DNA of 64,000 nt from Pararoseomonas sp. SCSIO 73927 (lineage in GTDB: Bacteria; Pseudomonadota; Alphaproteobacteria; Acetobacterales; Acetobacteraceae), in assembly GCF_037040815.1 (NCBI RefSeq), contig NZ_CP146232.1, forward strand, positions 930,001 to 994,000. The letters are read 5' to 3'. Of this stretch, positions 11,647 to 62,200 are shown one piece after another. The notes under the pieces are model-generated. The model saw nothing but the letters and a program-made list of their open reading frames with translations, did not search any database and was not told the origin of the DNA. Made by a program: the position numbers and the translations under genes. The stretch's first letter is position 1; the number at the start of each line of letters is the position of its first letter.

Positions 11647-11866
11647 GGGAGGCTCCGCCTCCCGGACCCTCCGCCGGGGGAAGAAGGAATTCTTCCCCCA
11701 GACCCCAATCATCTTTTTCTATCCACTGGTTCCAGGGGAACACGACCCGCGCCGAGGGTCCATGACCCTCGGCGAACCGCCAGCCCCGCATTCCGCGGCA
11801 GCCTCCCAGAAACAGATGAGGGGTGGGGTTCCAGGGGAGGGGAGAATTCCTTCTCCCCTCCCCTGG
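11647..11866. repeat. Composite hairpin repeat R1 (symmetric D-C-D form)
   Basis: First a small hairpin GGGAGGCTCCGCCTCCC (11647-11663). Then hairpin D, arms GGGGGAAGAA / TTCTTCCCCC with a GGAA loop (11676-11699), and a pyrimidine tail with ATCTTTTTCT (to 11720). Central hairpin C is GCCGAGGGTC-cat-GACCCTCGGC (11751-11773). Box CCGCGGCAGCC is at 11793-11803. A second, inverted tail and hairpin D follow, with perfect 16-nt arms around TTCC (11831-11866). The left D lies 43 nt past the trpF stop; the right D ends 10 nt before the EamA start. The same plan recurs at 42496-42690 and, with other ends, at three more sites. Confidence 0.85.
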
Positions 11867-11876
11867 GGCAGCCCGC

Positions 11877-12761
11877 ATGAAGCCCGCCCACATCGCCCTC
11901 GCGCTGCTCACCACCGCGATCTGGGGCTTCAACTTCGTCATGATCCGCGTGGCGCTGGATTCCGGCCTGCCACCGCTGCTGATGGCCGCGCTGCGCTTCG
12001 TGGTCGCCGCCCTCCCCGTGCTGTGGCTGCCCCGGCCGACGATCTCCACCGGGCGGCTGGTGGCGATCGCGGCCTTCCTCTTCGTCGGGCAGTTCGGGCT
12101 GCTCTTCACCGGCATGGCGGCGGGGATGCCGCCCGGACTGGCCTCGGTCACGCAGCAGTCCCAGGCCTTCATGACCGGGCTGATCGCCGCGGCGGTGCTG
12201 CGGGAGCGGCCCACGCCGTGCACGGTCGCCGGGATGGCGGTGGCCTTCCTGGGGCTGGCCCTGATCGCCACCACGGTGGGTGGCGGCGGGGTGACGGCGC
12301 TCGGGCTCGGCCTCTGCCTGTCGGCGGCCGCGAGCTGGGCGGTGGGGAACGTGCTGCTGCGCGGCGCGGGGGAGACCGGGGGCGCGCTGGCGCTGATGTC
12401 CTGGATGAGCCTCGTGCCGATCCTGCCCTTCTTCGCCATGTCCCTGGCGATCGAGGGGCCGGGGACGATCGCGCACGCGCTGACGCACCTGCAATGGGGC
12501 GGGGTGGCGGGGGTGCTCTACGTCGCGGTCGCCGCCACCTCCGTCGGCTACGGGATCTGGGGGTTCCTCATGGCACGCTACCCCGCCACCACGGTCGCGC
12601 CCTTCGCGCTGCTGGTGCCGGTCACCGGGGCGGCCTCGGCGGCGCTGGTGGTGGGGGAGAGCTTCGGGCCGATGCGGCTGGTGGGGATGGCCCTGGTGCT
12701 GGCGGGGCTGGGGATCGGGGTGCTGCGATGGCGGCGTGACCCCGCCCCCGCCGCACGCTAA
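11877..12761 (+). CDS. EamA/DMT-family exporter
   Basis: 294 residues with ten hydrophobic segments forming two EamA repeats (about 1-140 and 150-290); [16 protein letters not shown] and the Pro-rich helix ends are typical. Substrates of the family are amino acids and other metabolites; its place between trpF and trpB hints at an aromatic compound, but that is inference. I chose the ATG at 11877 because an upstream in-frame start would place coding over repeat R1. Its base use is less C-rich than trpF before it. Confidence 0.8.
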
Positions 12762-12814
12762 AGACCGCCTCTTCGCCCGCGCCTTCCGGGCCAACCACAC
12801 GGGAGACCGCCGCC

Positions 12815-14047
12815 GTGAACAAGCCCCTCCCCAATTCCCTCCGCCCCAACTCCCTGCGGAGCGGCCCGGACGCCCGTGGCCGCTTCGGCGATTTCGGCGG
12901 CCGCTTCGTCGCCGAGACGCTGATGCCGAACATCACGGAGGTGCAGGAGGCCTACGACGCGGCCCGGAAGGACCCTGAATTCGACCGGGAATGGCGGCGC
13001 CTGCTGAAGGACTACGTGGGCCGCCCCTCCCCGCTCTGGTTCGCGGAGCGGCTGACGAACCACCTCGGCGGCGCGAAGGTCTACCTGAAGCGCGAGGAGC
13101 TGAACCACACCGGCGCGCACAAGATCAACGCCGTGCTCGCGCAGATCATGCTGGCGAAGCGCATGGGCAAGACGCGCATCATCGCGGAGACCGGCGCGGG
13201 CCAGCACGGCGTGGCCACCGCCACCGCCTGCGCCCTGTTCGACCTGCCCTGCACCGTCTTCATGGGCGCGACGGACGTGGAGCGGCAGAAGCCCAACGTG
13301 TTCCGCATGAAGCTGCTGGGCGCGGAGGTGAACGCCGTCACCTCCGGCGCCGCCACGCTGAAGGACGCGATGAACGAGGCCCTGCGCTACTGGGTCGCGA
13401 ACGTGGCGGACACCTACTACTGCATCGGCACCGTCGCCGGCCCCGCGCCCTACCCGCAGATGGTGCGGGAGTTCCAGTGCGTGATCGGCGAGGAGACGAA
13501 GGAGCAGTGCCTCGCCATCGAGGGCCGGCTGCCGGACGTGGTGGTCTGCGCCGTCGGCGGCGGCTCCTCCGCCATGGGCATCTTCCACCCCTTCCTCGAC
13601 GATGCCGAGGTGAAGCTGGTGGGGGTGGAAGCCGCCGGGCACGGCATCGAGACCGGTGCCCATGCTGCGGCCATCAACGGCGGATCGCCGGGCGTTCTGC
13701 ACGGGAACAAGACCTACCTGTTGCAGGACCGCCACGGGCAGATCACGGAGGCCCACTCCATCTCCGCCGGCCTCGACTACCCGGGCATCGGCCCGGAGCA
13801 CTCCTGGCTGCACGAGATCGGGCGCGTGGAGTACACGGCGGCCACCGACAACGAGGCGCTGTCCGCCTTCCAGCTCCTCTCCAAGCTGGAGGGCATCATC
13901 CCCGCCCTGGAATCCGCCCACGGCCTGGCCGAGGTGATCAAGCGCGCGCCGACCATGCCGAAGGAAGGCATCATCGTGCTCAACCTCTCCGGCCGCGGCG
14001 ACAAGGACATCTTCACGGTGGCCCACCACATGGGGGTGGAGATCTGA
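12815..14047 (+). CDS. trpB: Tryptophan synthase beta subunit
   Basis: 410 residues from a GTG start. [12 protein letters not shown] holds the PLP lysine (Lys103); [13 protein letters not shown] is the substrate-carboxylate loop and [10 protein letters not shown] the PLP-phosphate loop. It condenses indole with serine. The stop overlaps the trpA start (TGATG), so the alpha and beta subunits are translationally coupled. Confidence 0.97.
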
Positions 14048-14913
14048 TGGGCGAGACAGCTCCTGCGGCGGCGGGCTGCGTCGAGCCCGTGCCCGGCGGT
14101 CGCATCGCCCGTCGCTTCGCGAAGCTGCGCACCGAGGGACGCGGCGCGCTGATGCCCTTCCTCGAGGCCTACGACCCCGACCCCGCGACGAGCATGGCCA
14201 TCCTGCGCGGCATGCCCGGCGCGGGCGCCGACCTGATCGAGCTCGGCGTGCCCTTCACCGACCCCGCCGCCGACGGCCCCACCGTGCAGAAGGCCGGGCA
14301 GCGCGCGCTGAAGGCCGGCGGATCGCTGGCCGGGGCGCTTGCGATGGTGCGGGACTTCCGGCGCGACGACGAGGACACGCCGCTGGTGCTGATGGGCTAC
14401 TTGAACCCCATCCTCGCCTACGGGCCGGAGCGCTTCTGCGAGGACTGCCGCTGCTCCGGCGTGGACGGCCTCATCGTCGTGGACATGCCGCCCGAGGAGG
14501 CGGACGAGGTCCAGCCCTTCGCGCAGGGGCTGGACATGATCCGGCTGGTGGCGCCCACCACGCTGGGAAACCGCCTGCCGACCGTGCTCGATGGCGCCAG
14601 CGGCTTCATCTACTACATCCCCATCACCGGCATCACCGGCACGCGCTCGGCCGATGCGGCGGATCTGGCGGCGGCCGTGCCGCGCATGCGGGCAGCCACC
14701 GACCTGCCGGTCGCGATCGGCTTCGGCATCCGCACGCCGGAGCAGGCGGCCGAGGCGGTGCGCGCGGCCGACGGGGCAGTGGTCGGCTCCGCGCTGATCG
14801 AGATCCTGGCGGGCACGCTGGACGAGGACGGGCGCGCCACGAAGGGCACGGTGCGCGCGGTGCTGGACGGGGTGCGGGCCCTGGCTGAGGGCGTGCGTGG
14901 GGCGCGGGAATAG
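14047..14913 (+). CDS. trpA: Tryptophan synthase alpha subunit
   Basis: 288 residues. The catalytic Glu is in LIELGVPFTDP and the catalytic Asp in DPAADGPTVQ; GIRTPEQA and VGSALIEI are the phosphate-binding loops. It cleaves indole-3-glycerol phosphate and channels indole to TrpB. About 20 unusual N-terminal residues (ETAPAAAGCVEPVPGG) precede the family start at RIARRFAKLR. The accD and folC genes that often follow trpA in alphaproteobacteria are absent; repeat R2 and a convergent GH13 gene follow instead. Confidence 0.95.
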   Translation: MGETAPAAAGCVEPVPGGRIARRFAKLRTEGRGALMPFLEAYDPDPATSMAILRGMPGAGADLIELGVPFTDPAADGPTVQKAGQRALKAGGSLAGALAMVRDFRRDDEDTPLVLMGYLNPILAYGPERFCEDCRCSGVDGLIVVDMPPEEADEVQPFAQGLDMIRLVAPTTLGNRLPTVLDGASGFIYYIPITGITGTRSADAADLAAAVPRMRAATDLPVAIGFGIRTPEQAAEAVRAADGAVVGSALIEILAGTLDEDGRATKGTVRAVLDGVRALAEGVRGARE

Positions 14914-14935
14914 GAGGTACCGGTCCTCCATATCC

Positions 14936-15179
14936 GGTCCGTGGCCAGGGAGAGGAACAAGGAATTCTTCCTCTCCCCGGACCCCTCACCATCATCTTCT
15001 TTCTCGAGTTGGTCTGGACATCGCTGACGGTGCGCCTCGGCTCTTGGAGCCGAGGCGACTGCAGGGGCAGGATCGGGCCCGATCACCAGCGCCACGCCTC
15101 AGGTCAGTCCCGCGGCAGCCCCATGCAAGTCTAGGAGGCTCAGCCTCCTGGCGGGGATCCAAGGGGCAGAGCCCCTTGG
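14936..15179. repeat. Composite hairpin repeat R2 (D-C-B-A form)
   Basis: It sits between convergent trpA and GH13 genes. Hairpin D: GGGAGAGGAA (14948-14957) with TTCCTCTCCC (14968-14977), enclosed by GGTCC/GGACC (14936-14940, 14979-14983). Tail CATCATCTTCTTTCT ends at 15004. Hairpin C: CGCCTCGGCTC-ttg-GAGCCGAGGCG (15033-15057). Box CCGCGGCAGCC is at 15110-15120. Hairpin B: AGGAGGCT-c-AGCCTCCT (15133-15149). Hairpin A: CCAAGGGGC-aga-GCCCCTTGG (15159-15179). D starts 22 nt after the trpA stop; A lies 6 nt beyond the GH13 stop. Confidence 0.85.
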
Positions 15180-15185
15180 GCACCC

Positions 15186-16850
15186 TCAGATCTCGCTGCG
15201 GCGGAGCAGGTAGTCCAGCCCGCCCACCCGGAACCAGCGGTAGCCGTAGGGCTCCATCAGGATGCGGTGGTGCCGGCCGTCCACCGGCCGGCTGTGGTCC
15301 TCCGCGAGAAGGTTGATCAGCAGGCTGTCGTGCGATCCGGCGGCGCCGGGATCGATGTCGATCTCCCGCGGCTCGTCGCCGAGGTTGTGGAGGAAGAGCA
15401 CGGAGTTGCCGCGCCAGTCGTAGCGGAGGGCGAGCACGTCCTTCGCGTCCGTCTGGACCACCTCGTAGTCGCCGCTGCCGATCTCCGGGATCTCCTTCCG
15501 CATGCGGATCACGCGCTCCGTCCAGTTGAGGAGGGAGGCGGGGTCGCGGCGCTGGGCGGCGACGTTCAGGTGCTCGAAGCCGTAGGGGCCGCCGGAGATG
15601 ACGGGGTTGGGCGGGCTGTCGTGCTTGGTGAACCCGCCATGCGGCTCGGTGGACCACTGCATCGGCGTGCGCGCGCACTCCCGCTCCGGCAGGGTGAGGT
15701 CGTCGCCCATCCCGATCTCGTCGCCGTAGCGGATCACCGGGGTGCCGGGCAGGGTGAGCATGAGGCTCGTCGCCAGCTCGTAGCGGCGGCGGTCGCCCTT
15801 CAGCATCGGGGCCAGGCGGCGGCGGATGCCGCGGTCGTAGAGCTGCATGGACTTGTCGGGGCCGAAGGCCTCGAACACGGCCTGGCGCTGCTTCTCCGTC
15901 AGACGGCCGAGATCCAGCTCGTCGTGGTTGCGCAGGAACACGCCCCACTGCGCGGTGGCCGGCTTGTCGCGCGTGCCCTCCAGCGCCTTGGCGAGCGGGC
16001 GGGTGTCGGCGCTGGCGAGTGCCAGGAACAGGTTCTGGTTCAGCGGGAAGTTGAACATCATGTGCATGCGGTGGCCGTCGGCGCCGAAGAACTCCTCGTT
16101 CAGCTTCGGCGGCACGTTCGCCTCCGCCAGGAGGATGGCGTCGCCGCGCCGCCACTGCAGGAACTCGCGCAGGTCGCGCAGCATGTCGTAGCGCGGCGCG
16201 GCCTTCTTCACATCCGCGCCCTTCGTCGCGATCACGAAGGGCACGGCGTCCATGCGGAAGCCGGAGACGCCGAGCTGCAGCCAGTACCCCATGATCTTCA
16301 GGATCTCGGCCTGCACGTGCGGGTTCTCCGTGTTGAGGTCCGGCTGGAACTCGTAGAAGCGGTGGAAGTAGTAGAGGCCCGCCTCCGTGTCGCGCGTCCA
16401 GGTCGTCTTCTGCACGCCGGGGAAGACGACGCCGTCCTCCGCATTCGCCGGGCGCTTGTCGGACCACACGTACCAGTCCCGGTACCTCGATCCCGGGTCG
16501 CGCCGCGCCTCCTGGAACCAGGGGTGCTGGTCCGAGCTGTGGTTCACCACGAGGTCCATGATCACGCGCATGCCGCGCTGGTGGCAGCCATGGGTGAATT
16601 CCACGAAGTCGCCGAGCGTGCCGTAGCGCGGATCGACGCCGTAGTAGTCCGTGATGTCGTAGCCGTTGTCCCTCTGCGGGGAGGGCTGGAACGGCATGAG
16701 CCAGATGCAGGTGACGCCGAGGCCCTGGATGTAGTCCAGCCGCCGCGTCAGCCCCTCGAAGTCGCCCACGCCATCGCCGTTGGCGTCCATATAGCTCTCG
16801 ACGGAGAGGCAGTAGACCACCGCGTTCTTGTACCAGAGGTCGTTGATCAT
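15186..16850 (-). CDS. GH13 alpha-glucan enzyme, trehalose-synthase (TreS)-like
   Basis: 554 residues, the size of TreS without a fused maltokinase. The start MINDLWYKNAVVYCLSVESY, then DANGDGVGDFEGL and NGYDITDYYGVD, match TreS. The three GH13 acids are readable: Asp in GFRMDAVPF, Glu in LLAEANV and Asp in FLRNHDEL. TreS interconverts maltose and trehalose; a related glucosyltransferase cannot be excluded. It is transcribed divergently from a LysR gene across a 217-nt gap, a classic regulator/target arrangement. The ATG at 16850 is chosen because the 65 codons upstream are low-complexity. Confidence 0.8.
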   Translation of the reverse strand: MINDLWYKNAVVYCLSVESYMDANGDGVGDFEGLTRRLDYIQGLGVTCIWLMPFQPSPQRDNGYDITDYYGVDPRYGTLGDFVEFTHGCHQRGMRVIMDLVVNHSSDQHPWFQEARRDPGSRYRDWYVWSDKRPANAEDGVVFPGVQKTTWTRDTEAGLYYFHRFYEFQPDLNTENPHVQAEILKIMGYWLQLGVSGFRMDAVPFVIATKGADVKKAAPRYDMLRDLREFLQWRRGDAILLAEANVPPKLNEEFFGADGHRMHMMFNFPLNQNLFLALASADTRPLAKALEGTRDKPATAQWGVFLRNHDELDLGRLTEKQRQAVFEAFGPDKSMQLYDRGIRRRLAPMLKGDRRRYELATSLMLTLPGTPVIRYGDEIGMGDDLTLPERECARTPMQWSTEPHGGFTKHDSPPNPVISGGPYGFEHLNVAAQRRDPASLLNWTERVIRMRKEIPEIGSGDYEVVQTDAKDVLALRYDWRGNSVLFLHNLGDEPREIDIDPGAAGSHDSLLINLLAEDHSRPVDGRHHRILMEPYGYRWFRVGGLDYLLRRSEI

Positions 16851-17067
16851 CCCTGCCGCCCTGCCTGCCAGGGGCGGAAACCGCCTCTCCGGGCCCGGGT
16901 TGCGCGGGCTGTTCCGCCCTTCGTCCGGGAGGGCAGGGCCTCGGCGAGGGCCCGCCGGCGGTGCGGCCCCGCACGGCGCGCCTCCCGCCTCCCCCGCCGG
17001 CCACGCGGCTTCCATCCACGCCGTGGATGCCCTACGCCTGCACACCCTCTCCCGCCGGAGTCATCCC

Positions 17068-17991
17068 ATGCCGCAGCGCAGCCTCGAGACCGGCCTCCGC
17101 AAGTTCGACCTGAACCTTCTCCCGGTCTTCTGGACGCTGATGAAGACCCGCAGCGTCACCCGCACGGGCGAGGCCCTGTTCCTCTCCCAGCCCGCCACCT
17201 CCGCCGCCCTCGCCCGCCTCCGCGCCTCCTTCAAGGACGACCTCTTCGTCCGCCAGGGCCGCACGCTGGAGCCGACCCCGAAGGCGGAGGCGCTGATGGA
17301 GCAGCTCGGCCCGCTGATGCAGGGCGTGGCCGGCGCGCTCGGCGAATCCATCCCCTTCGACCCGGCCACCGACGCCCGCACCTTCCGCATCGGCATGGCC
17401 GAGGACGTGGCCATGGCCCTGATGCCCGCCCTGCCCGCCATCCGGGAGGCCGCCCCGCACTGCCGCCTGATCTGCCGCGCCGCCAGCTACCGCACCATCC
17501 CCGAGATGTTCGCCACCCGGGAGATCAGCCTCTTCATCGGCCATGTGGAGGAGCTGCCCGCCAGCTCGAAGCAGCGCGTCATCCGCCGCGGCGGCTGGGT
17601 GGTGCTGCGGGACGCCGCCTCCCCCGGCCCGGTGGACCTGGACATGTACTGCGCCCGCCCGCACCTGCTGGTCACGCCGCGCGGCGACCTCATCGGCATC
17701 GCGGACGAGATCCTGGCGGGGCTGGGCCGGGAGCGGCAGGTGGTGCTGGGCCTGCCGGACTACGCCCTCATCCCCCGCGCCCTGCTCGGCACGGACCTGC
17801 TCTGCCTCGTCAGCGAGGCGGTCTACGACGCCCTCTCGATCCTGGACGACAAGTGCCGGCTGGCCGTGGACCCGCCGCCCTTCCCCTGCCCGGAATCTGT
17901 CACCTACATCGCCTGGCGCGGCGCCGTGGACCACGACCCCGGCGAGATGTGGCTCCGCGCCCAGCTCATCGCGGCGCTGGCGCGGCACTGA
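17068..17991 (+). CDS. LysR-family transcriptional regulator
   Basis: 307 residues. The N-terminal winged HTH reads FDLNLLPVFWTLMKTRSVTR, then TGEALFLSQPATSAALARLR, with the recognition helix near residues 35-55. The effector domain starts near 95 (TFRIGMAEDVAMALMP) as in the NodD/LinR-type branch of the family. Divergent from the GH13 gene, so it may control it; the inducer is unknown. A hairpin follows the stop. Confidence 0.85.
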   Translation: MPQRSLETGLRKFDLNLLPVFWTLMKTRSVTRTGEALFLSQPATSAALARLRASFKDDLFVRQGRTLEPTPKAEALMEQLGPLMQGVAGALGESIPFDPATDARTFRIGMAEDVAMALMPALPAIREAAPHCRLICRAASYRTIPEMFATREISLFIGHVEELPASSKQRVIRRGGWVVLRDAASPGPVDLDMYCARPHLLVTPRGDLIGIADEILAGLGRERQVVLGLPDYALIPRALLGTDLLCLVSEAVYDALSILDDKCRLAVDPPPFPCPESVTYIAWRGAVDHDPGEMWLRAQLIAALARH

Positions 17992-24088: not shown

Positions 24089-24092
24089 GCCC

Positions 24093-26576: not shown

Positions 26577-26593
26577 GTCCTGACAGGTCCGGC

Positions 26594-26648
26594 CCTAGGG
26601 GGCGCCGCCCCCTAGGAACCCCCGCCGGGGGGTGGACGCACCCCCCGG
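26594..26648. repeat. Half-copy R6 of the composite hairpin repeat (A-type hairpins)
   Basis: Leader TGACAGGTCCGG (from 26581) is shared with R5 (61942). Hairpin CCTAGGGGGC-gcc-GCCCCCTAGG (26594-26616) starts 17 nt past the SYLF stop; a second hairpin CCGGGGGGTG-gacg-CACCCCCCGG is at 26625-26648. The D, C and box parts of the full repeat are missing. Confidence 0.7.
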
Positions 26649-26669
26649 ACCCCGCGATCTAATGCGCGG

Positions 26670-36829: not shown

Positions 36830-40249
<3,420 letters not shown>

Positions 40250-41449: not shown

Positions 41450-42487
41450 GTGACCCGTTCCCCCGGGATGGAACGCCGCATCGCCTGGGTCTGCCAATGG
41501 CTCGACCCCTCCCTGCCCACCAAGGAGCAGGCCGCGCTGAACCTGCGCGACACCACCGTGACCTACATCGCCAAGATGGAGCGCAAGGACGCGATCGCGA
41601 AGCTGATCGGCCTGGTTCAGACGAATGGCGAGACGCTGCTGGCCCAGATCGCCCGCACCGCCCGCCTGCCCCCTGGGCAGCGGGCCATGCGGATGGGCAG
41701 CAACGTGCTGCCGGTCTACAGCCACCCGGCCGTGCGGCCCCTCTATGACGACCCGGCCCTGCGGCGCACCGTGGAGACAAGCCTGGCCCCCGCCGCCCGC
41801 GCGGCGAAGGAAGGGGGCGTGCGCCTCTCCATGCATCCCGGCCAGTACACGGTGCTGGCGACGGAGAAGGAGCACACCCGCGCCGCCGCCGTGGCGGATA
41901 TCGAGTACCACACGGACGTCATGCGCTACCTCGGGCAGGCCGGCGGGTGGCACCCGAACGGCGCGCACATCAACGTCCATGCCGGCGGCCGCGCGGCGGG
42001 GATCGAGGCCTTCCGCTCCGGCCTGGCTCTCCTCTCCGAGGATGCGCGCAACCTGCTGACGGTGGAGAACGAGGAGACCGCCTACGGGCTGGACGACCTG
42101 CTGCCACTGGCGGACAGCCTTCCGATCGTGCTGGACCTGCACCACCACTGGGTCGTCACGGGCGAGTACATGGAGCCGGATGATCCCCGCATCGCCCGCG
42201 TGATCGAGTCCTGGCGCGGCGTCCGGCCCATCATGCACATCAGCGCGCCGAAGCCCGACCTGGTGCCCGGGCAGGACCCGGACGTGCTGCCGGACCGCGC
42301 TGCCCTGATCGCCGCCGGCATCTCCGCCCGCGACCTGCGCGCCCATTCCGCTCGCCTGTGGAACCGGCCCCACGCGGCCTGGGCGGCGCGGCACCTGGAA
42401 TGGGCGGATATTGAGGTGGAGGCGAAGGAGAAGAACCTGGCGAGCGCGGAGTTTGCGGCCGTGTGCTTCCCGGTGGTGGCGGCCTGA
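41450..42487 (+). CDS. uvsE: UvsE-like UV-damage endonuclease
   Basis: 345 residues. RIAWVCQWLDPSL at the start, then MGSNVLPVYSHPAVRPLY, VRLSMHPGQYTVLATE, INVHAGGRAAG and TVENEETAYGLDDLLPLA are the UvsE TIM-barrel blocks with the metal-binding His/Glu/Asp residues. Such enzymes incise 5' to UV photoproducts. The GTG start has RBS AAGGGGC; ATG at 41468 is possible. The stop is 8 nt before repeat R3. Confidence 0.85.
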   Translation: MTRSPGMERRIAWVCQWLDPSLPTKEQAALNLRDTTVTYIAKMERKDAIAKLIGLVQTNGETLLAQIARTARLPPGQRAMRMGSNVLPVYSHPAVRPLYDDPALRRTVETSLAPAARAAKEGGVRLSMHPGQYTVLATEKEHTRAAAVADIEYHTDVMRYLGQAGGWHPNGAHINVHAGGRAAGIEAFRSGLALLSEDARNLLTVENEETAYGLDDLLPLADSLPIVLDLHHHWVVTGEYMEPDDPRIARVIESWRGVRPIMHISAPKPDLVPGQDPDVLPDRAALIAAGISARDLRAHSARLWNRPHAAWAARHLEWADIEVEAKEKNLASAEFAAVCFPVVAA

Positions 42488-42495: not shown

Positions 42496-42690
42496 CCAGG
42501 GGGAGGGAGAAGGAATTCTCCCTCCCCCTGGAACCCCCACCCTCATCTTTTTCTGAGGGGCTGCCGCGGAATGCGGGGCTTGAGGTTCGCCGAGGGTCGA
42601 TGACCCTCGGCGCGGGACAGGTCTTTCCTCGACTAACTCGAAGAAGAAGATGATGGGGGTCCAGGGGGAAGAATTCCTTCTTCTCCCTGG
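42496..42690. repeat. Composite hairpin repeat R3 (symmetric D-C-D form)
   Basis: Lies between convergent uvsE and GH15. Left D: CCAGGGGGAGGGAGAA / TTCTCCCTCCCCCTGG, perfect 16-nt arms with a GGAA loop (42496-42531), 8 nt past the uvsE stop. Tail with CATCTTTTTCT ends at 42554. Box GGCTGCCGCGG is at 42559-42569. C: CGCCGAGGGTC-gat-GACCCTCGGCG (42588-42612). The right tail and right D (42661-42690, one mismatch) are inverted and end 26 nt from the GH15 stop. Confidence 0.88.
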
Positions 42691-42716: not shown

Positions 42717-44540
<1,824 letters not shown>

Positions 44541-53152: not shown

Positions 53153-56100
53153 CTACACCATGAAGTACTTCGCCCGCGGGTGGTGCAGGACGATCGCGCT
53201 CGTGGACTGCTCGGGGTGGAGCTGCCACTCGTCGCTGATGGAGACGCCGATGCGGTCCGCGCCGAGGAGCCGCAGCAGCGGGACCTGGTCCTCCAGCCGC
53301 GGGCAGGCCGGGTAGCCGAAGGAGTAGCGGCCGCCGCGGTAGCCCTGCTGCAGCATGCGGTCCATGTCGCGGTCGTCCTCCCCGGCGAAGCCGAGCTCGG
53401 CGCGGATGCGCTTGTGCACGTACTCCGCCATCGCCTCCGCCATCTCCACGCTCAGGCCGTGGAGGTAGAGGTAGTCCTGGTAGCGGTTGTCCTCGAACCA
53501 CTCCCGCGCGATGTCGGAGGCCTTCTGGCCGACCGTGACCACCTGCAGGCCGATCACGTCACGGCCGTCCTCAATGTCCGTCACGAGGTCGGCGATGCAA
53601 TCCCCGTCCTCCTTCGGCTGGCGCGGGAGGTTGAAGCGCACGGCCTCGGTTACGCCGTCCTCCTCGAACAGGATCAGGTCGTTGCCCTGGCCGGCGCACT
53701 TCCAGTAGCCGTAGATCGCCTGCGGCCGCAGGATCTCCTGCTCCGCCGTGATACGCAGCATCCGCTGCAGCACGGGCCGCAACTCCTGCTTCGCCCAGCC
53801 CAGGAAGTCGTCCAGCGAGCGGCCCTGCTTCCGGAAGCCCCACTGGAACTGGTACAGGCTCCGCTCATTGATGAAGGGCACCACGGCCTTCGGCGCGGCC
53901 TCGATCACGCGGGCGCCCCAGAAGGGCGGCGTCGGGGCCTGCGTCTCCGTGGCCAGCCGGCGGCGGCGCGCTTGGGCGTAGGCCACGTCCACCGGGGCGA
54001 AGCCGCGCGCATCGGCGGTGCCGAGGGTGCGGCGCTCCTTGCGGGACTTGTCCACGCGCTTCGTCTGCAGCGCGGCCAGGTAGTCGTCGAAGCCGTTGCC
54101 GACGACCTTGTCCATCAGGTGCAGCCCGTCGAAAGCATCGCGCGCGTAGGCGACGCGGCCGGAGGCGTAGGCCTTCACGCAGTCGTCCTCCACGTAGTTG
54201 CGCGTCAGCGCCGCGCCGCCGAGCATCACGGGGATGTCGAGGCCGATGCGCGTCATCTCCTCCAGGTTCTCGCGCATCACGACGGTGGACTTCACCAGCA
54301 GGCCGGACATGCCGATGGCGTGCGCGCGGTGCTCCTTCGCCGCGGCCACCATGTCCGCCAGCGGCACCTTGATGCCGAGGTTGACGACCCGGTAGCCGTT
54401 GTTGGTGAGGATAATGTCCACGAGGTTCTTGCCGATGTCGTGCACGTCGCCCTTCACGGTGGCGAGCACGATGGTGCCCTTCTCCTGCCCCTCGGCCCGC
54501 TCCATGTGGGGCTCCAGATAGGCGACGGCCGCCTTCATCGTCTCCGCGCTCTGCAGCACGAAGGGAAGCTGCATCTTGCCGGCGCCGAAGAGCTCGCCCA
54601 CCACCTTCATCCCGTCGAGCAGGATGTTGTTGATGATCTCGATCGGCGCGATGCCCTTCGCCAGCGCATCGGCCAGCTCGTCGTCCAGGCCCTTGCGGTC
54701 GCCTTCGACGATGCGGTCCTTCAGGCGGCCCTCGACCGTCTCGGCCTTCTTCTTCGCGCCCGTGTCGGCGGCCTTCCGGCCGGCGAAGATCTCCAGCAGC
54801 TTCTGCAGGGGATCGTAGTCCTCGGTCCGGCGGTCGAAGATCAGGTCCTCGGCGACCTTCACCTCCTCGGCCGGGATCTGGTGCAGGGGCTTGATCTTGG
54901 AGACGTGGACGATGGCGCCCGTCATACCCGCCTTCACGGCGTGGTCGAGGAAGACCGAGTTCAGCACGTGCCGAGCGGCCGGGTTCAGGCCGAAGGAGAT
55001 GTTGGACAGGCCGAGCATGATCTGGATGTCCGGGAAACGCTCCCGGATCATGCGGATGCCGTCCAGCGTCCAGACGCCGAGCTTGCGGTCGTCCTCATTC
55101 CCCGTCGCGATGGTGAAGGTCAGGGGGTCGATCATCAGGTCGGACTGCGGCAGCCCGTGACGGTCGCAGGCGAACTCCACCAGCCGGGTGGCGATCCGCA
55201 GCTTGTCCTCGGCGGTCTTGGCCATGCCCACCTCGTCGATGGTGAGCGCGATCACGGCGGCGCCGAACTTCTTGGCGAGGATCATGCGGTCCGTCGCGTG
55301 CCCCTCGCCGTCCTCGAAGTTGATCGAGTTGATGATGGGCTTGCCGCCATGCAGTTTCAGCGCCGCCTCGATAACCGGCGTCTCGGTGGAATCGATCACC
55401 AGCGGCGCGTTCACGCTGCTGGTGAAGCGCCGGACCACCTCGTTCATCTCCTCCATCTCGTTGCGGCCGACGAAGGCGGTGCAGATGTCGAGGGAGTTCG
55501 AGCCCTCGCCGATCTGGTCGCGGCCCATGGTGACGCAACCGTCCCAGTCATGCGCCGCCTGCCTCTCCCGCCAGGCCTTGGAGCCGTTCGCGTTGCAGCG
55601 CTCGCCGATGGAAAAGTAGCTGTTCTCCTGCCGCAGGGGCACCGGGGCGTAGAGGGACGCAACGGAGGGAACCCAGACCGGGCTGCGCCGCACCGGCGCC
55701 GGCCGGTGTGCGGCCCCGCCGCGCTTGCGCAGCATCGCGTCCAGCGCCGCAATATGCGGGGTGGAGGTACCGCAGCAGCCGCCGATGAGGTTCAGCCCGT
55801 CCTCGGTGACGAAGCGCTCCATCCAGCTCGCCAGCTCGGAGGGGCCGAGCGGGTAGTGGGTCTTGCCGTCCACCAGCTCCGGAAGCCCGGCATTGGGCTG
55901 GCAGGAGAGCAGGCCCGGCCAGTTCTGGGAGAGCCAGCGGACGTGCTCCGCCATTTCCTGCGGGCCGGTGGCGCAGTTCAGCCCCATCAGGTCCACGTCG
56001 AGCGAGTGCACCACCGCCGCGGCGGCGCCGATGTCGGGCCCGACCAGCAGGGTGCCAGTCGTCTCCACCGTCACCTGCACGAAGATCGGGATGTCGGACT

Positions 56101-56644
56101 TCGCCTCGGCGCGCGCGATCTTGGCCGCGTTCACCGCGGCCTTGATGAAGAGCGTGTCCTGGTTCGTCTCGGTCAGCAGCGCGTCCGCCCCGCCCGCGAT
56201 GAGGCCGCGGCACTGGGTGAGGAGCGCCGCCTCCAGCGCGTCGTAGGTGACGTTGCCGAGGGAGGGCAGCTTCGTCCCCGGCCCGATATCGCCGATCACC
56301 CAGCGGTGGCGCCCGTCGGCGAAGCCCTCCGCCGCCTCCCGCGCGAGTTCCACCGCCACCTTGTTCAGCTCGAAGGCGCGGTCCTCCAGCTCGAACTCCC
56401 CGAGCGTGATGGGAGAGCCGCCGAAGGTGTTGGTCAGCACCATGTCGGCGCCGGCCTCGTAGTAGCCCCGATGGATCTCCCGCACGATGTCCGGGCGGGA
56501 GAGGACGAGGACGTCGGTGCAGTTCTCCCGGCCCCAGTAGTCCCGGTCCACCTCCAGATCCATGACCTGCACGCGGCTGCCCATCCCGCCGTCGCAGAGG
56601 AGCACGCGGTCGCGAAGGGCGTCGAGGAGATGCGGTCGGGACAT
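53153..56644 (-). CDS. metH: Cobalamin-dependent methionine synthase
   Basis: 1163 residues with all domains. Homocysteine domain (1-330): DGGMGSRVQ, TNTFGGSPI, zinc ligands in LNCATG and IGGCCGTSTPHI. Pterin domain (about 345-620): SIGERCNANGSKAW. B12 domains (about 640-890) with VKGDVHDIGKNLV near 732 (His ligand of cobalt). Reactivation domain (about 905-1163) ends YFMV with YSFGYPACPRLEDQ. It methylates homocysteine using methyl-THF. The neighbouring BtuB-like receptor imports its cofactor. Confidence 0.97.
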   Translation of the reverse strand: MSRPHLLDALRDRVLLCDGGMGSRVQVMDLEVDRDYWGRENCTDVLVLSRPDIVREIHRGYYEAGADMVLTNTFGGSPITLGEFELEDRAFELNKVAVELAREAAEGFADGRHRWVIGDIGPGTKLPSLGNVTYDALEAALLTQCRGLIAGGADALLTETNQDTLFIKAAVNAAKIARAEAKSDIPIFVQVTVETTGTLLVGPDIGAAAAVVHSLDVDLMGLNCATGPQEMAEHVRWLSQNWPGLLSCQPNAGLPELVDGKTHYPLGPSELASWMERFVTEDGLNLIGGCCGTSTPHIAALDAMLRKRGGAAHRPAPVRRSPVWVPSVASLYAPVPLRQENSYFSIGERCNANGSKAWRERQAAHDWDGCVTMGRDQIGEGSNSLDICTAFVGRNEMEEMNEVVRRFTSSVNAPLVIDSTETPVIEAALKLHGGKPIINSINFEDGEGHATDRMILAKKFGAAVIALTIDEVGMAKTAEDKLRIATRLVEFACDRHGLPQSDLMIDPLTFTIATGNEDDRKLGVWTLDGIRMIRERFPDIQIMLGLSNISFGLNPAARHVLNSVFLDHAVKAGMTGAIVHVSKIKPLHQIPAEEVKVAEDLIFDRRTEDYDPLQKLLEIFAGRKAADTGAKKKAETVEGRLKDRIVEGDRKGLDDELADALAKGIAPIEIINNILLDGMKVVGELFGAGKMQLPFVLQSAETMKAAVAYLEPHMERAEGQEKGTIVLATVKGDVHDIGKNLVDIILTNNGYRVVNLGIKVPLADMVAAAKEHRAHAIGMSGLLVKSTVVMRENLEEMTRIGLDIPVMLGGAALTRNYVEDDCVKAYASGRVAYARDAFDGLHLMDKVVGNGFDDYLAALQTKRVDKSRKERRTLGTADARGFAPVDVAYAQARRRRLATETQAPTPPFWGARVIEAAPKAVVPFINERSLYQFQWGFRKQGRSLDDFLGWAKQELRPVLQRMLRITAEQEILRPQAIYGYWKCAGQGNDLILFEEDGVTEAVRFNLPRQPKEDGDCIADLVTDIEDGRDVIGLQVVTVGQKASDIAREWFEDNRYQDYLYLHGLSVEMAEAMAEYVHKRIRAELGFAGEDDRDMDRMLQQGYRGGRYSFGYPACPRLEDQVPLLRLLGADRIGVSISDEWQLHPEQSTSAIVLHHPRAKYFMV

Positions 56645-56740: not shown

Positions 56741-56758
56741 CTTAAAGATATCCTTATG
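56741..56758. promoter_or_regulatory. AT-rich palindrome upstream of metH
   Basis: CTTAAAGATATCCTTATG is an imperfect inverted repeat centred on GATATC, about 97 nt upstream of the metH start and distinctly AT-rich in a GC-rich context. It resembles operators of ArsR-type methionine-cycle regulators such as SahR, but I cannot confirm that motif from memory alone. Confidence 0.5.
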
Positions 56759-56788
56759 TCCAGTGCCGGGCGCGTGCTGCTGGCCGGA

Positions 56789-57035
56789 CCAGGGGGCTTT
56801 GCCCCCTGGAACCCCCACCAGGAGGCTGAGCCTCCTGGACCTGCATCGGGCTGCCGCGGGACTGACCGGATGGGTCAGCCCTCCACGACCGGCACCCTTC
56901 CTGCCCCCGCAGTCGCCTCGGCTCCAAGAGCCGAGGCGCACCGTCAGCCGGGCAAAGGCCAAAGCCTAGAAGAAGATGATGGTGAGGGGTCCGGGGAGAG
57001 GAAGAATTCCTTCTTCCTCTCCCTGGCCACGGACC
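56789..57035. repeat. Composite hairpin repeat R4 (D-C-B-A form)
   Basis: Hairpin A: CCAGGGGGC-ttt-GCCCCCTGG (56789-56809). B: CCAGGAGGCT-g-AGCCTCCTGG (56818-56838). Box GGCTGCCGCGG is at 56849-56859. C: CGCCTCGGCTC-caa-GAGCCGAGGCG (56914-56938). Tail and D: GGGAGAGGAAGAA / TTCTTCCTCTCCC around TTCC (56994-57023), enclosed by GGTCC/GGACC. The D end begins 12 nt past the BtuB-like gene stop in sense orientation; the A end lies near the metH promoter. Confidence 0.88.
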
Positions 57036-57047
57036 GGAACCGAGGGA

Positions 57048-59042
57048 TTAGAACGTCCCGCGGATTCCTGCCAGCGCGCTCCGCCCCGGGATGACGAAGC
57101 CGTTTGCCGGCTCGTAGCGGGAGTTGCCGAGGTTCCGGATCTCCACGAAGCCCGAGACCTTCTCGATCACCGGCACCGTGGCGGTGAGGTTGAACACCGT
57201 GCCGGCGCGGTTCTTCCCCGGTGCCGTGATGGAGGTGCCGTCGTCGTTGTAGCGGGCGAAGGCGCCTTCGGGGGAGGGTCCGGTGTAGATCAGCTCGGGC
57301 ACCACGGTCACGCGGCCGCCCTGCGGCCCGCCCCAGGGCACGGGCGCGGAGAGGCGGGCGGTCAGGGTGGCGAGGTTGCGCGCGCGCCGGGCCAGGGGCT
57401 GGTCGTTGGTGGTGTCGCGCGCCTCCTGCACGGTCCAGGTGCCGGTGAGGGAGAGCCAGTCGGCGGGCCGCACCGTGAGGGAGAACTCCCCGCCGCGGAT
57501 CCGCGCGCGCTCGACGTTGAGCAGGGTGGTGAAGCTCGCGTCGTAGTTGATCAGGTTCCTCAGCCGGTTGTCGAAGTAGAGGGCCGAGACCGTGGCCCAG
57601 GAGGTCACGTCCGTCTCGATGCCGGCCTCCCAGGAGAAGCTCTCCTCCGGCTTCAGGTCCGGGTTGCCCTGGAAGAAGCCGGTGATGGTGCCGAAGCGCT
57701 GGAAGAGGGAGGGGGCCTTGAAGGCGGTGCCGGCGGAGGAGCGCAGGCGGGAGGCGATCTCGGGAAGGGCGAGCACGCCGCCGAGGCGCCAGCTCGTGAA
57801 GCCGTCGTAGTCCTCCGGCCCGTCGTGCCGCAGGCCGGCGTTCAGGTCCAGGCGGTCGAAGAGACGCCCCTGGGCCGAGACGTAGCCGGCGGCGGAGCGC
57901 TGGGAGGCGTCCACGGTCGTGCGGAAGAAGGCGGAGCCGTTCGCGCTGTCGGCGGTCTCCTTCTCCCACTGGCCGCCGAACAGCACCGCCACGTCGGTCA
58001 GGGCGCCGGCATTCGGCAGGCGCACGGTGTTGTCGAAGAACACCGCCCGCCGCTCGGCGCGGTAGAGGTCGTCCGCCGTGGCGAAGGGGTTCGCCACGTC
58101 CGGCAGGTTGGTGTAGCGGCGCCGGTTGTGGCTGCCGGAGAGGGTAAGGCGCGTGCTCCAGGCGCCGCCGAACAGGTCCGCCGTGCCGCGCAGGTAGCCG
58201 AACCAGGACCGGTCCTGGGCGGTGTAGTTCGGGTCGTCGTTCGGCACGTTGTCGAGGCCGAGCGTGTTCTCCCGGCCGCGCACGAAGCCCTCGATCCGGG
58301 TACGGCCAAGGAACTCGCCCGGCACCGTCTCGCCGAGGGTCAGGCCGAGCCGGGCCGTGCCGACGGCGGAGCGCAGCCCGTCCCGCTCCCCGAGGTTGTT
58401 CGTGAAGCGCGGGGCTACGGCGTTGCTGCCGCGGGTGGAGAGGCTCTGGCCGGTGAGCTGGTAGTCGAAGGCGCCGAGGGTGCCGCCCACGCCGGCGTGG
58501 CCGCGCACCGTGGAGCGGCTGCCGCCCGCGGCCTCAAAATAGGGCGCCGCGGCGCGGTCGGCCGGGGCGGCGCGGGTGATGAGGTTCACCACGCCGCCGA
58601 TCGCGGCGGAGCCGTAGACGGAGGAGGCGGGGCCGCGCACCACCTCGATCCGCTCGATGTCGCCCAGCAGCTCGTTGCCGAAGTTGAAGGCGCCGTTCGG
58701 GTCCGAGGGGTCGTTGATCGGCACGCCGTTCAGCAGCACCAGCACCTGGCGCGCGTTGGTCCCGCGCGCGAAGCCGGAGGCCTGCTGGCCGAGGCCGCCG
58801 GACTGCACGAGCCGGAAGCCCGGCACGACCGCCAGGGCCTCGGCGAGGGTGGTGTACCCGTTCTCCTCGATGGTCCGGCGGTCGATCACCGTGACGGCGG
58901 CGGGGATGCGCTCCTGCGGCGTCGGGACGCGGGTTGCGGTCACCACCACCTCGGGCACGGTGGCGGGGTTGGTCGAGACGTCCTGAGCGATGGCCGGCCC
59001 CATGGGAGCAATGGCGATCAGGGCGAGGATCCGGCGTTTCAT
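57048..59042 (-). CDS. btuB: BtuB-like TonB-dependent outer-membrane receptor
   Basis: 664 residues. Signal peptide 1-20 (MKRRILALIAIAPMGPAIAQ), TonB box region EVVVTATRVPTP, plug domain with NGVPINDPSDPNG and VEVVRGPASSVYGSAAIGGVVN, then a barrel ending in an aromatic residue (GIRGTF). A cobalamin riboswitch precedes it, so vitamin B12 is the likely ligand. It sits beside metH, whose product needs B12. Confidence 0.9.
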   Translation of the reverse strand: MKRRILALIAIAPMGPAIAQDVSTNPATVPEVVVTATRVPTPQERIPAAVTVIDRRTIEENGYTTLAEALAVVPGFRLVQSGGLGQQASGFARGTNARQVLVLLNGVPINDPSDPNGAFNFGNELLGDIERIEVVRGPASSVYGSAAIGGVVNLITRAAPADRAAAPYFEAAGGSRSTVRGHAGVGGTLGAFDYQLTGQSLSTRGSNAVAPRFTNNLGERDGLRSAVGTARLGLTLGETVPGEFLGRTRIEGFVRGRENTLGLDNVPNDDPNYTAQDRSWFGYLRGTADLFGGAWSTRLTLSGSHNRRRYTNLPDVANPFATADDLYRAERRAVFFDNTVRLPNAGALTDVAVLFGGQWEKETADSANGSAFFRTTVDASQRSAAGYVSAQGRLFDRLDLNAGLRHDGPEDYDGFTSWRLGGVLALPEIASRLRSSAGTAFKAPSLFQRFGTITGFFQGNPDLKPEESFSWEAGIETDVTSWATVSALYFDNRLRNLINYDASFTTLLNVERARIRGGEFSLTVRPADWLSLTGTWTVQEARDTTNDQPLARRARNLATLTARLSAPVPWGGPQGGRVTVVPELIYTGPSPEGAFARYNDDGTSITAPGKNRAGTVFNLTATVPVIEKVSGFVEIRNLGNSRYEPANGFVIPGRSALAGIRGTF

Positions 59043-59203
59043 CCCGGGGTGCCTCCGTTGCACGGTCCGCGTTTCGCCCCGGCCAGGGATGGCCGGAACG
59101 GGCTTGCGTCGTGCTCGCATGACGGAGGCGCGCCGGATGGCCGGCGCGCCCTGGGTCCGTTTACGCCGGTGCTCCCCGCCCGGCACGCGCGAGACAACAT
59201 CTG

Positions 59204-59392
59204 CGCCGGCCGGTCTCCTGGCTCGCGACGTGGCGGGCACGCGCCCGCCTGACGGTCCCGCCTTCTCGCGCCGGTGGGCGCAATGGCATCGGGGGCCGTC
59301 GCCGTCGCCTACAGTTGCGGGGGCAGCTGCGGATCGGTGGCGGGGATCGCCACGTCGCGCATTCCCGTTTCAGCCCTTCCGGGCCACCGGCG
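59204..59392 (-). ncRNA. Cobalamin (B12) riboswitch
   Basis: On the minus strand, about 160 nt before the btuB-like ATG. Conserved elements in order: GGGCTGAAACGGGAA, CCGCAACTGTAGGCG, GATGCCATTG, GAGAAGGCGGG and GAGCCAGGAGACCGGCC (the distal AGGAGACC loop). This is the B12-box architecture. It would repress the receptor when adenosylcobalamin is plentiful. The exact ends are approximate. Confidence 0.93.
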
Positions 59393-59560
59393 CATGGGGC
59401 GGAACCTATCGACACGAACGCGTGAAGTCCAGGGAGGGGCAGCCCGGCCGGAGTGGCGAGGCGCAGGCGCCACATGCCCGCGCACGGGCGGCACCGCGGC
59501 GGCTCCCGCAGCCGGAACGCGGTGGCACCGCGCAACTGGAACGCAGAGCCGCGACGGCGT

Positions 59561-59589
59561 TTGACACTGATAGCCATTCTCACTTACTT
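59561..59589 (+). promoter_or_regulatory. Promoter with Fur-box-like operator
   Basis: TTGACA (59561-59566), 17 nt, TTACTT (59584-59589). The spacer and -10 contain TGATAGCCATTCTCACT (59568-59584), close to the classic Fur consensus (GATAAT-N-ATTATC type). It lies 34 nt before the GTG of the siderophore receptor gene, so iron repression is likely. Confidence 0.7.
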
Positions 59590-59622
59590 CGCCGCCACAC
59601 GTCAGCGTGAAGGAGCGGCCTG

Positions 59623-61929
59623 GTGAGCGTAGCCCGTCGGCAGAATACAGCAGCCCAGGTCGCCCCTCCCGTCAGGGCGACAGGCACGACGGACGGCATC
59701 CCCGCGCCCTGTCCGCGCCCGGCGACGGGCACCAGGACCCTCACCGGCGCCGTGGTGGCGTGCGGCCTCGCCCTCTCGGTTCAAGCCCAGGCCCAAGCCC
59801 CGGCCCAGGAGGCGACCCGGCAGGTGGCCCAACAGGCGGCCGGAACCGCCACGGGGCAGGCCGCGGCCGGGTCGGGCGCCGCGCCCGTCGCCGTGCCGAT
59901 GGTGGATGTCACCGCCGCGGGGGCCCCGGGCACCCTGCAGCCGGCCTATGCCGGCGGCCAGGTCGCGCAGGGCGGGTCGCTCGGGCTGCTCGGCAGCCGC
60001 AGCCTGATGGACTCCCCCTTCAGCACGACGAGCTTCACGTCGCAGGTCGTGGAGGACCAGCAGGCGCGCACCATCGCCGACACGCTGATCAACGACTCCT
60101 CCGTCCGCCTCACCACCGGTGCCAACGGCTTCGACGACACCTTCTCCATCCGCGGCTTCCAGGTGGGATCCTCGGATGTCGGGCTGAACGGCCTGTTCGG
60201 GCTGATCTCCTCCAACCGCGCCCAGGCGCAGTACATCGAGCGGATCGAGCTCCTCCGCGGCCCCGGCGCGCTCATCAACGGCATCGCGCCCGGCGGCAGC
60301 ATCGGCGGCGCGATCAATGTCATCACCAAGCGGGCCGGCGACGACCCGCTGACCCGCCTGACGCCGGTCTTCATCAGCGACGGCAATTTCGGCATCCAGG
60401 CCGACCTGGCGCGCCGCTACGGCGCGAACAACGAGTGGGGCGTGCGCTTCAACGGGCTGTACCGCGACGGCGAGGCCTCCATCGAGGACGGCAACCTCCG
60501 CAGCGGCCTCGCCGCGCTAGGGCTGGACTATCGCGGGGACCGGTTCCGCCTGTCCGTGGACGGCATCTTCCAGCGTGACGACACCCGGAACTTCCGCCCG
60601 CAGCTCACCCTCTCCAGCGCCATTCCCTATATCCCCTCCGTGCCGGATTCGCGCAGCAACTGGTTCCCCGGCACCCGGCTGCGCCAGCAGGACAGCACCA
60701 TCGCTACCCGGGCCGAGTACGACGTGGCGGACTGGGTGACCGTCTACGGGGCCGTGGGCTACCGCGACGGCTGGAACGAGCAGACCTTCCCCGATTCCCG
60801 CCCGGGCGGCGCCAACGAGCTCGGCGACTTCCGGGTCACCAACGCCCTCTACGACTCCTACACGCGGGTCGTCAGCGGGACGGCCGGCGCCAACTTCCGG
60901 TTCAACCTCCTCAACGTCGGCCACACCCTCAACCTCGCCTATTCCGGCCTCCGGCAGGATGCGGGCAACGCCTACATCACCTCCGCCATCACCTACCCCT
61001 CCAGCATCTACAACCCCTCCTCGCTGCCGCCCATCACCGCCCCGCGCACCGACCCGCGCCGGGCCTCGATCACGGAGTTCTCGAGCTTCGCGCTGGCCGA
61101 CACGCTCTCCTTCTTCAACGATCGCGTCCTGCTGACCGGCGGCGTGCGCTTCCAGAACGTGCAGGTGAACAGCTACAGCACGGCAACCGGGGCACGGACG
61201 AGCCAGTACGACGCCGACGCGACGACGCCCCTCGGCGGCATCGTGGTGAAGCCCTGGCAGAACGTCTCCCTCTACGCGAACTACGCCCAGGGCCTGACCC
61301 GCGGCGAGATCGTCGGCCCCGGCTTCAACAACACCGGCGAGGTCCTCGCCCCCTACAAGTCCGAGCAGATCGAGGCCGGCGTCCGCGTGGACTGGGGCAG
61401 CGTCACCACCACCGCTTCCGTGTTCCAGATCACCCGGCCAAACGCCATCCGCACCGCGGCCAACAACCGCGCCTATGACGGCGAGCAGCGGAACCGCGGC
61501 CTGGAGCTCTCCGCCTTCGGCGAGATCACGCCTGGCCTGCGCGCCCTGGTCAGCGCGACCTTCATCAACCCCGAGCTGACAAGCCCCACCAACCCCGCCG
61601 AGCGCGGCAACGACGCGGCGGGCGTGCCGGACAAGACCTTCTCCGGCAGCCTGGACTGGGACGTGCCGGGGGTGCCCGGCCTCGCCCTCAACGGGCGCGT
61701 GATTCACACCTCGGGCTCTTACCTCACCACCGCCAACACGCTGCGCTTCGACGGCTGGACGCGGGTGGACTTCGGGGCCCGCTACAGGACGGAGATCGCC
61801 AACAAGCCGGTCACGCTGCGCGCCAACCTGGAGAACGCGTTCGGGGCGGATTACTGGCTCACCACCGGCACCTTCGTGACCGTGGGCTCGCCGCGCACCC
61901 TCATCGTGTCGGCAGCCTTCGACTTCTGA
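59623..61929 (+). CDS. TonB-dependent siderophore receptor
   Basis: 768 residues from a GTG with RBS AAGGAG. Signal peptide about 40-60 (VVACGLALSVQAQAQA) after an unusual 38-residue preamble. The plug carries SIRGFQVGSSDVGLNGLFGL and IERIELLRGPGALINGIAPGGSIGGAINVITK, typical of FhuE/FoxA-like ferrisiderophore receptors. The barrel ends SAAFDF. The Fur-like promoter and the downstream esterase fit xenosiderophore use. Confidence 0.9.
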   Translation: MSVARRQNTAAQVAPPVRATGTTDGIPAPCPRPATGTRTLTGAVVACGLALSVQAQAQAPAQEATRQVAQQAAGTATGQAAAGSGAAPVAVPMVDVTAAGAPGTLQPAYAGGQVAQGGSLGLLGSRSLMDSPFSTTSFTSQVVEDQQARTIADTLINDSSVRLTTGANGFDDTFSIRGFQVGSSDVGLNGLFGLISSNRAQAQYIERIELLRGPGALINGIAPGGSIGGAINVITKRAGDDPLTRLTPVFISDGNFGIQADLARRYGANNEWGVRFNGLYRDGEASIEDGNLRSGLAALGLDYRGDRFRLSVDGIFQRDDTRNFRPQLTLSSAIPYIPSVPDSRSNWFPGTRLRQQDSTIATRAEYDVADWVTVYGAVGYRDGWNEQTFPDSRPGGANELGDFRVTNALYDSYTRVVSGTAGANFRFNLLNVGHTLNLAYSGLRQDAGNAYITSAITYPSSIYNPSSLPPITAPRTDPRRASITEFSSFALADTLSFFNDRVLLTGGVRFQNVQVNSYSTATGARTSQYDADATTPLGGIVVKPWQNVSLYANYAQGLTRGEIVGPGFNNTGEVLAPYKSEQIEAGVRVDWGSVTTTASVFQITRPNAIRTAANNRAYDGEQRNRGLELSAFGEITPGLRALVSATFINPELTSPTNPAERGNDAAGVPDKTFSGSLDWDVPGVPGLALNGRVIHTSGSYLTTANTLRFDGWTRVDFGARYRTEIANKPVTLRANLENAFGADYWLTTGTFVTVGSPRTLIVSAAFDF

Positions 61930-61957
61930 TGGACCTGGGCCTGACAGGTCCGGGACC

Positions 61958-62200
61958 AGGGGGCGCCGCCCCCTGAAACTCCCGCCAAGGGCCTGAGGCC
62001 CTTGGATCCCCTTCTGGCTGCCGCCATGCCGTCCTGAGACGGTGTTTCCGCGGGACGGGCTCCTTCCTGCCTTTGCAGTCGCCTCGGGTCATCGACCCGA
62101 GGCGCACCGTCAGCCGAAAGAGACCAGCTACTAGAAAAAGATGATGGTGAGGGGTCCGGGGAGAGGAAGAATTCCTTCTTCCTCTCCCTGGCCACGGACC
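61958..62200. repeat. Composite hairpin repeat R5 (D-C-B-A form)
   Basis: Between convergent siderophore receptor and esterase. Leader TGACAGGTCCGG at 61942, then A: AGGGGGC-gcc-GCCCCCT (61958-61974). B: CCAAGGGCCT-g-AGGCCCTTGG (61985-62005). Box GGCTGCCGCC at 62016. C: CGCCTCGGGTC-atc-GACCCGAGGCG (62080-62104). Tail, then D: GGGAGAGGAAGAA / TTCTTCCTCTCCC around TTCC (62159-62188), enclosed by GGTCC/GGACC. The D end is 34 nt past the esterase stop in sense orientation. Confidence 0.88.

Follow-up and report, generated by a model that had tools for sequence, protein, structure and literature searches.

Palindromic intergenic repeats are in themselves common in bacteria, and several described classes lie close to the family of composite hairpin repeats presented here, found in a 64,000-nt stretch of the genome of Pararoseomonas sp. 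SCSIO 73927 (contig NZ_CP146232.1, positions 930,001 to 994,000; hereafter the window). Bacterial interspersed mosaic elements (BIMEs) and their Rhizobium-specific counterparts (RIMEs, intergenic mosaic elements named in PMC2873474) are built from several distinct palindromic modules, are intergenic, occur in many copies and are limited to a genus. Repetitive extragenic palindromes (REPs) with a terminal tag measure 20–40 bp, with stems of 5–13 bp in the GTAG type and 8–9 bp in the CGTC type; they are intergenic and patchily distributed, and some families are reported to be restricted to core regions (PMC3733652). CGTC-type REPs are defined by an 8–9 bp stem with AT at positions one and two, a loop of 4–5 nt and a terminal CGTC, are described as having no dedicated transposase and are reported missing in Acetobacteraceae (PMC3733652). 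Miniature inverted-repeat transposable elements (MITEs) and small mobile sequences such as the enterobacterial RUs (PMC10969869, PMC2759123) are short, non-coding and dispersed, with inverted ends and presumed mobility.

The common architecture of the present family is a hairpin D with a GGAA loop, a pyrimidine tail, a hairpin C, a box and two further hairpins, B and A, in a unit of about 250 bp. As in BIMEs and RIMEs, the units are mosaics of distinct palindromes in variable order (asymmetric, symmetric and partial forms) that lie between genes in many copies within one genus, the likeness to RIMEs being one of description and not of compared sequences; the family differs from both in the lack of a detectable REP transposase in the genome and in its concentration around the origin. 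From the tagged REPs, which it resembles in being palindromic, intergenic and patchy, it is set apart by its unit size and by C and D stems of 11–13 bp. Membership in the CGTC-tagged REPs was rejected on these stem lengths, on a C stem that starts with CG or GC and on the absence of a tag at the stem ends, and integron attC sites were considered and dropped by eye alone. With MITEs and RUs the family has in common that it is short, non-coding, dispersed and presumably mobile, with candidate inverted ends in many copies. We regard it, with a probability of roughly 55%, as a composite palindromic repeat, a non-coding and non-autonomous DNA element, likely mobile, that lies behind stop codons and occupies mainly the origin-proximal third of the chromosome; its best class is likely that of a MITE/BIME-like mobile DNA element without a detectable REP-associated tyrosine transposase (RAYT). 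The confinement to the origin-proximal third is unusual. This concentration is not visible from the window alone and, together with the placement at gene 3′ ends and a clean insertion at one copy, R1, goes beyond the first-pass annotation of the window.

That annotation had proposed a covariance-model scan of the genome, and many copies were indeed returned. The 5.59-Mb genome contains 99 occurrences of the 12-mer at the core of hairpin D, AAGGAATTCTTC, and none of a reversed-pattern control. A search with a 245-nt consensus produced 237 first-look candidates, of which the best 40 were scored; it yielded 40 copies that were full or nearly so, of 89–96% identity, and 13 short matches. The covariance model, built from 35 copies and spanning D to C, found at least 151 matches; every one of the 150 listed falls on contig C1, the 5.47-Mb chromosome, and together they merge into at least 142 loci, a lower bound biased towards the best matches because the best 150 of 9,016 candidates were scored. 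The absence of a named repeat of this form, also suggested earlier, held in that no Rfam family matched the repeats of the window at the gathering score, where a cobalamin riboswitch was the sole match; a described Rfam RNA family was rejected accordingly. Under a relaxed threshold the repeats in the R4–R5 stretch matched only mir-671 (E 0.43, far under the cut-off). A literature search, with subscription journals mostly outside its coverage, found no report of such a repeat in Roseomonas.

With the origin set at 1,658,400, 125 of the 142 loci lie within 960 kb of it, where 35% would be expected, and the edges of the repeat zone are sharp, at 0.70 and 2.55 Mb. Two parS-like sites at 1,656,636 and 1,660,241, with one and two mismatches to the consensus, cluster with mnmE, gidA, gidB and parB at 1.656–1.663 Mb. 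The dnaA gene (2,562,274) is found some 8.5 kb past the last dense copy (2,553,772), where the zone ends on the right, at a distance of about 0.9 Mb from parS, and were it the origin, the copies would instead fill one arm. An origin at dnaA was rejected, as the GC skew of the sampled sequence would then be positive on both arms; the parS origin gives arms of opposite sign, +0.025 and −0.013. A stretch within the zone, 1.0–1.4 Mb, is sparse in copies and may be inserted or moved DNA.

The availability of targets does not account for the clustering. Spacers were counted in whole blocks within 1.40–2.557 Mb (940 kb) and in 37 distal samples of 20 kb. Within the zone, copies occupied 40 of 135 spacers between convergent genes, 42 of 595 between tandem genes and 2 of 136 between divergent genes; the distal samples gave 2 of 94, 0 of 476 and 0 of 92, respectively. 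This explanation was rejected because distal convergent spacers are about equally frequent (94/662 against 135/866 gene pairs), yet nearly all empty.

Among relatives, the contigs carrying parS held more exact cores than expected: 19 against 6.6 in genome G011, 13 against 2.4 in G001, 7 against 1.75 in G002 and 3 against 0.64 in G006. For the parS contig of G011 (C46, 203,661 nt), with its 19 listed cores, P was 5.8e-5; for the other three the contig ends were taken at the last listed copy, which flatters the test, and the repeat-rich G010 and G013 were left out.

Possible, though short of even odds, is that the zonal pattern marks an old conserved core, in which ancient copies persist in DNA of slow turnover while the distal part is newer, so that no link to the origin would be needed. 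In R. rosea, two contigs have repeat-dense stretches with 25 copies in 200 kb and 12 copies in 160 kb by the model, and of 193 genes from these stretches with orthologs in the sampled sequence, 186 map to the repeat-rich zones here, 7 to the distal samples (896 kb) and none to the sparse 1.0–1.4 Mb stretch (63 kb sampled). Such a mapping is what an old core would give, and a restriction to core regions is reported for REP families in S. maltophilia and P. syringae (PMC3733652). The mapping is, however, partly circular because parS and repeat density had guided the choice of contigs. Gene density is moreover similar in the zone and the distal parts, and at three R. rosea loci the element separates genes that, in the distal part here, are neighbours with no element between them, so distal pairs are both conserved and occupiable.

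The distribution among relatives is patchy. Among 15 congeners, own genome included, the exact core was present in 36–171 copies in seven and in 0–4 copies in eight, and the covariance model gave 0, 1 weak and 0 matches in three near-closed congeners. The proposed extension of the scan to related Acetobacteraceae was partly rewarded: with stricter filters and the best 13 candidates scored per genome, 14 of 249 family genomes, own genome included, had a match at 1e-6, but strong matches were confined to the same genus and the other family genomes did not exceed 57.5 bits. Roseomonas sp. KE2513 and R. aerilata hold a variant at 98–100 bits. At the place corresponding to R2, behind trpA, R. pecuniae (L155, about 8084–8190) carries a different intergenic palindromic repeat, GAGCATTTTC...GAAAATGC.

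The gene pairs around the 99 exact cores are convergent in 53 cases, tandem in 43 and divergent in 3, against a background in the same stretches of 191 convergent pairs in 1,153; gene calls came from a simple script based on codon usage, in which stops are firmer and starts rough. At least one gene 3′ end thus adjoins 96 of the 99 cores, and none lies inside a called gene, with a single flagged exception at 1,734,500, a lone and degenerate D region. For the genes on the D side, the stop precedes the core by exactly 35 nt in 19 of 73 cases; many copies read CTGATCC at this place, and the right end of many copies has TCAG at the matching position. These 19 stops comprise 16 TGA, 2 TAG and 1 TAA; since TGA makes up 1,503 of 2,047 stops overall, it is not clearly over-used there. 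At the R4 locus the C-terminal end of the TonB receptor is unchanged in the loci of four relatives; a D core follows within 110 nt of the receptor stop in two of them (L316, L332) and is missing from that span in the others (L333, L334). Behind rpsO (L032, near C1:1,520,700) the repeat lies after a hairpin and T-run terminator belonging to the gene itself.

Nearest relatives were chosen by trpB, and the site of R1 was compared at the nine nearest of 80 trpB loci. In five of them trpF abuts or overlaps the EamA start with nothing between, and three were not comparable; in the window and in R. populi the copy is present with RTGA on each side. R4 is shared as an orthologous copy with the closest relative, G006, in which R5 is a decayed remnant; R5 is retained in G010, where a long C run interrupts it (contig C21, L317) that probably arose in sequencing or assembly because of the hairpin. 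An R. mucosa plasmid has, behind a short-chain dehydrogenase/reductase gene, a copy that covers 51% of the query at 86% identity and by eye is near complete. For two sites in R. rosea, the matching genes here are neighbours without the element, and their spacers do not align as clean empty sites. No match was found in a phage collection that would suggest carriage by phages.

Compensating stems, the central claim made from the window, were recovered. Pairing holds in 98.2% of the stem cells of 35 copies and falls to 49–58% when partners are slid. Changes on both sides affect 9 of 26 pairs in 33 cells, against 3.2 pairs and 6.8 cells in shuffles, and 0 of 500 shuffles reached this, although the cell counts are inflated by inheritance within subfamilies. 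Further pair types are weaker evidence (20 against 17.7 in shuffles, reached by 13 of 500). The stem of the orthologous R1 is swapped between own genome and R. populi; this swap and the several pair types per position argue for more than one compensatory event, which gene conversion could mimic. Folds are far more stable than those of shuffles, both for R2 as DNA (z −4.67) and for R5 as RNA (z −5.54), and place an outer GGTCCG/CGGACC stem on D.

The further claim, that covariation implies selection on folded RNA, was not supported. RNA selection on a single strand should favour G.U; in 169 elements from own genome and R. rosea (164 D stems and 169 C stems tallied) the leftover mismatches in D and C are 39 G.T and 39 A.C, so neither RNA strand is favoured in these stems. 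An RNA-only reading was rejected on this lack of strand bias, and the constraint is most readily assigned to the DNA itself or to palindrome correction by template switching; DNA hairpins or such correction explain the data as well as or better than selected RNA. That the compensatory changes come from a mutation process, in which template switching corrects imperfect palindromes, and not from selection on structure, is a somewhat unlikely account. Swaps of both arms are common with few intermediates, one C pair being G-C in 137 and C-G in 27 elements with five other cells, and the leftover mismatches lack a strand preference, as the process would have it; yet several distinct hairpins, the tail and the box are kept across species, none of which correction alone needs. 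Quite unlikely is that the elements work as RNA, as bidirectional 3′-end structures that stop transcription or shield mRNA ends. The adjoining gene 3′ ends, the stable RNA fold and the G-free pyrimidine tail after D would suit such a role, whereas no intrinsic terminator, a GC-rich hairpin with an immediate T run, was found inside R1, R2, R4 or R5, the copies scanned, and this candidate was rejected for them. The D and C stems also show no G.U excess, rpsO already has its own terminator ahead of the element, and related species free of the repeat retain the orthologous genes. That G.T and A.C are equally frequent is also a warning: hairpin repeats of bacteria can show covariation without necessarily being functional RNA.

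Sites such as matS and those of RacA mark other chromosome domains; the family resembles them in having many copies in one chromosomal domain and differs in that they are short protein-binding motifs. That the elements are architecture sites of the origin domain, bound between convergent genes by gyrase, SMC or a nucleoid factor, is very unlikely: the sharp-edged concentration around parS and the excess of cores on the four parS contigs would agree with it, but we know of no binder for these repeats, the counts in the near-closed congeners mean that there is no general need for them and several congeners are repeat-free, the 1.0–1.4 Mb stretch is near-empty within the zone, and the parS-contig test is flattered for three of the four genomes.

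For a mobile DNA element, insertion into spacers 3′ of gene stop codons is predicted. An enzyme supplied in trans would move the element, and its hairpins would act as DNA, single-stranded or cruciform, while it is copied, and not as RNA; the ends, both of which often bear CTGA, would render insertion behind a gene harmless. Inside the origin compartment the copies may exchange sequence among themselves and could be junctions for the rearrangement of gene blocks. Gene order within the zone is much altered between species. Of 15 gene pairs with a copy between them, 12 lie apart in the other species, compared with 26 of 132 copy-free pairs; the reverse direction gave 8 of 11 against 9 of 116. 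Stratified by orientation, p was 0.03 and 1.4e-4, the two directions not being independent.

Several results weigh against a mobile, rearranging element. Among convergent pairs alone, 11 of 12 were broken against 6 of 9 (p 0.27), the stratified p for spacers of at least 150 bp was 0.61, and of further loci, 9 of 30 mappable, 4 were broken and 5 adjacent. The use of copies as junctions is kept as a hypothesis because the length and orientation controls fail to secure the association with breaks; length-matched controls do not separate the excess of rearrangement from operon borders. R1 is the single clean insertion found, and the RTGA pair, and with it target-site duplication, was seen at this copy only. 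No RAYT (Y1_Tnp, PF01797) was matched in own genome by a search that detected it in 5 of 14 named controls, and a RAYT-driven REP was rejected on this result. No autonomous version or parent transposon was found in the flanks of five odd copies, the part of the genome searched, and in this, as in the target duplication at one site, the family may depart from MITEs. The 89–96% likeness of the copies to the consensus is also explicable by selection or gene conversion. Finally, G.T prevails among the mismatches of the A and B stems (69 against 22 A.C), an excess that to us looks like largely one shared CCAGGGG/CCCTTGG allele.

The copies in the window are listed in Table 1. The five full copies had been correctly located, with the D, tail and C plan in all and with B and A in R2, R4 and R5. 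A second architecture, with two D hairpins, one per end, had been noted for R1 and R3; the second D proved to be inverted relative to the first, and this symmetric form makes up 5 of the 99 exact-core copies when a second D core is searched for under strict criteria. The box proposed as fixed, GGCTGCCGCGG, is exact in four of the five copies; R5 has GGCTGCCGCCATG, and in R3 the box lies on the opposite side of C compared with R1, each read from its + strand D. A B-like hairpin precedes R1. Many copies, not all, have GGTCCG/CGGACC-like and CTGA-like motifs close to both ends.

Table 1. Repeat copies and their parts in the window, with neighbouring genes
Feature	Position	Strand	Form and basis	Location and neighbouring genes
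R1	11647..11866	+	Symmetric form, D at each end; sequence and model matches on both strands	trpF (10982-11632 +); EamA transporter gene (11877-12761 +)
R1 D core	11684	+
R1 hairpin C	11750..11774
R1 box	11793..11803	-
R1 inverted D core	11844
R2	14936..15179	+	Full D-tail-C-box-B-A element	Convergent spacer; trpA (14047-14913 +); alpha-amylase gene (15186-16850 -)
R2 hairpin D	14936..14983	+	Outer stem GGTCCG/CGGACC; sequence and DNA fold
R2 hairpin C	15033..15057	+	Sequence and DNA fold
R2 hairpins B and A	15133..15179	+	B 15133-15149, A 15159-15179; sequence and DNA fold
Partial unit	26578..26660	.	Two A-/B-like hairpins and a CTGACAGGTCCGG end, without D and C; repeat in common with 61940-61974
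R3	42496..42690	-	Symmetric form	Convergent spacer; UvdE-family gene (41468-42487 +); GH15 gene (42717-44540 -)
R4	56789..57035	-	Full element	Tandem spacer; behind TonB receptor gene (57048-59042 -), upstream of metH-like gene (53153-56644 -)
R5	61958..62200	-	Full element	Convergent spacer; TonB receptor gene (59752-61929 +); esterase-family gene (62235-63185 -)

The cobalamin riboswitch of the window (59191-59406, − strand) is located just 5′ of the TonB receptor gene that precedes R4, and R4 lies between this gene and the next, the B12-dependent metH-like gene. Tandem 111-nt repeats at 37626-38064 are a repetitive protein segment within a long open reading frame (36830-40249, + strand).

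Speculative and rather improbable is the wider proposal of a self-contained origin macrodomain with the repeats as its joints, in which DNA hairpins behind gene ends would be recombination junctions and let gene blocks swap inside only, so that repeat spread and gene shuffling would limit one another to this third of the chromosome. A family with sharp edges at the origin-proximal third that is enriched on the parS contigs of relatives would, if this holds, provide a natural marker for a domain of a bacterial chromosome, and it makes testable whether the spread of such elements is limited to DNA that is close in space and whether changes of gene order use them as joints.

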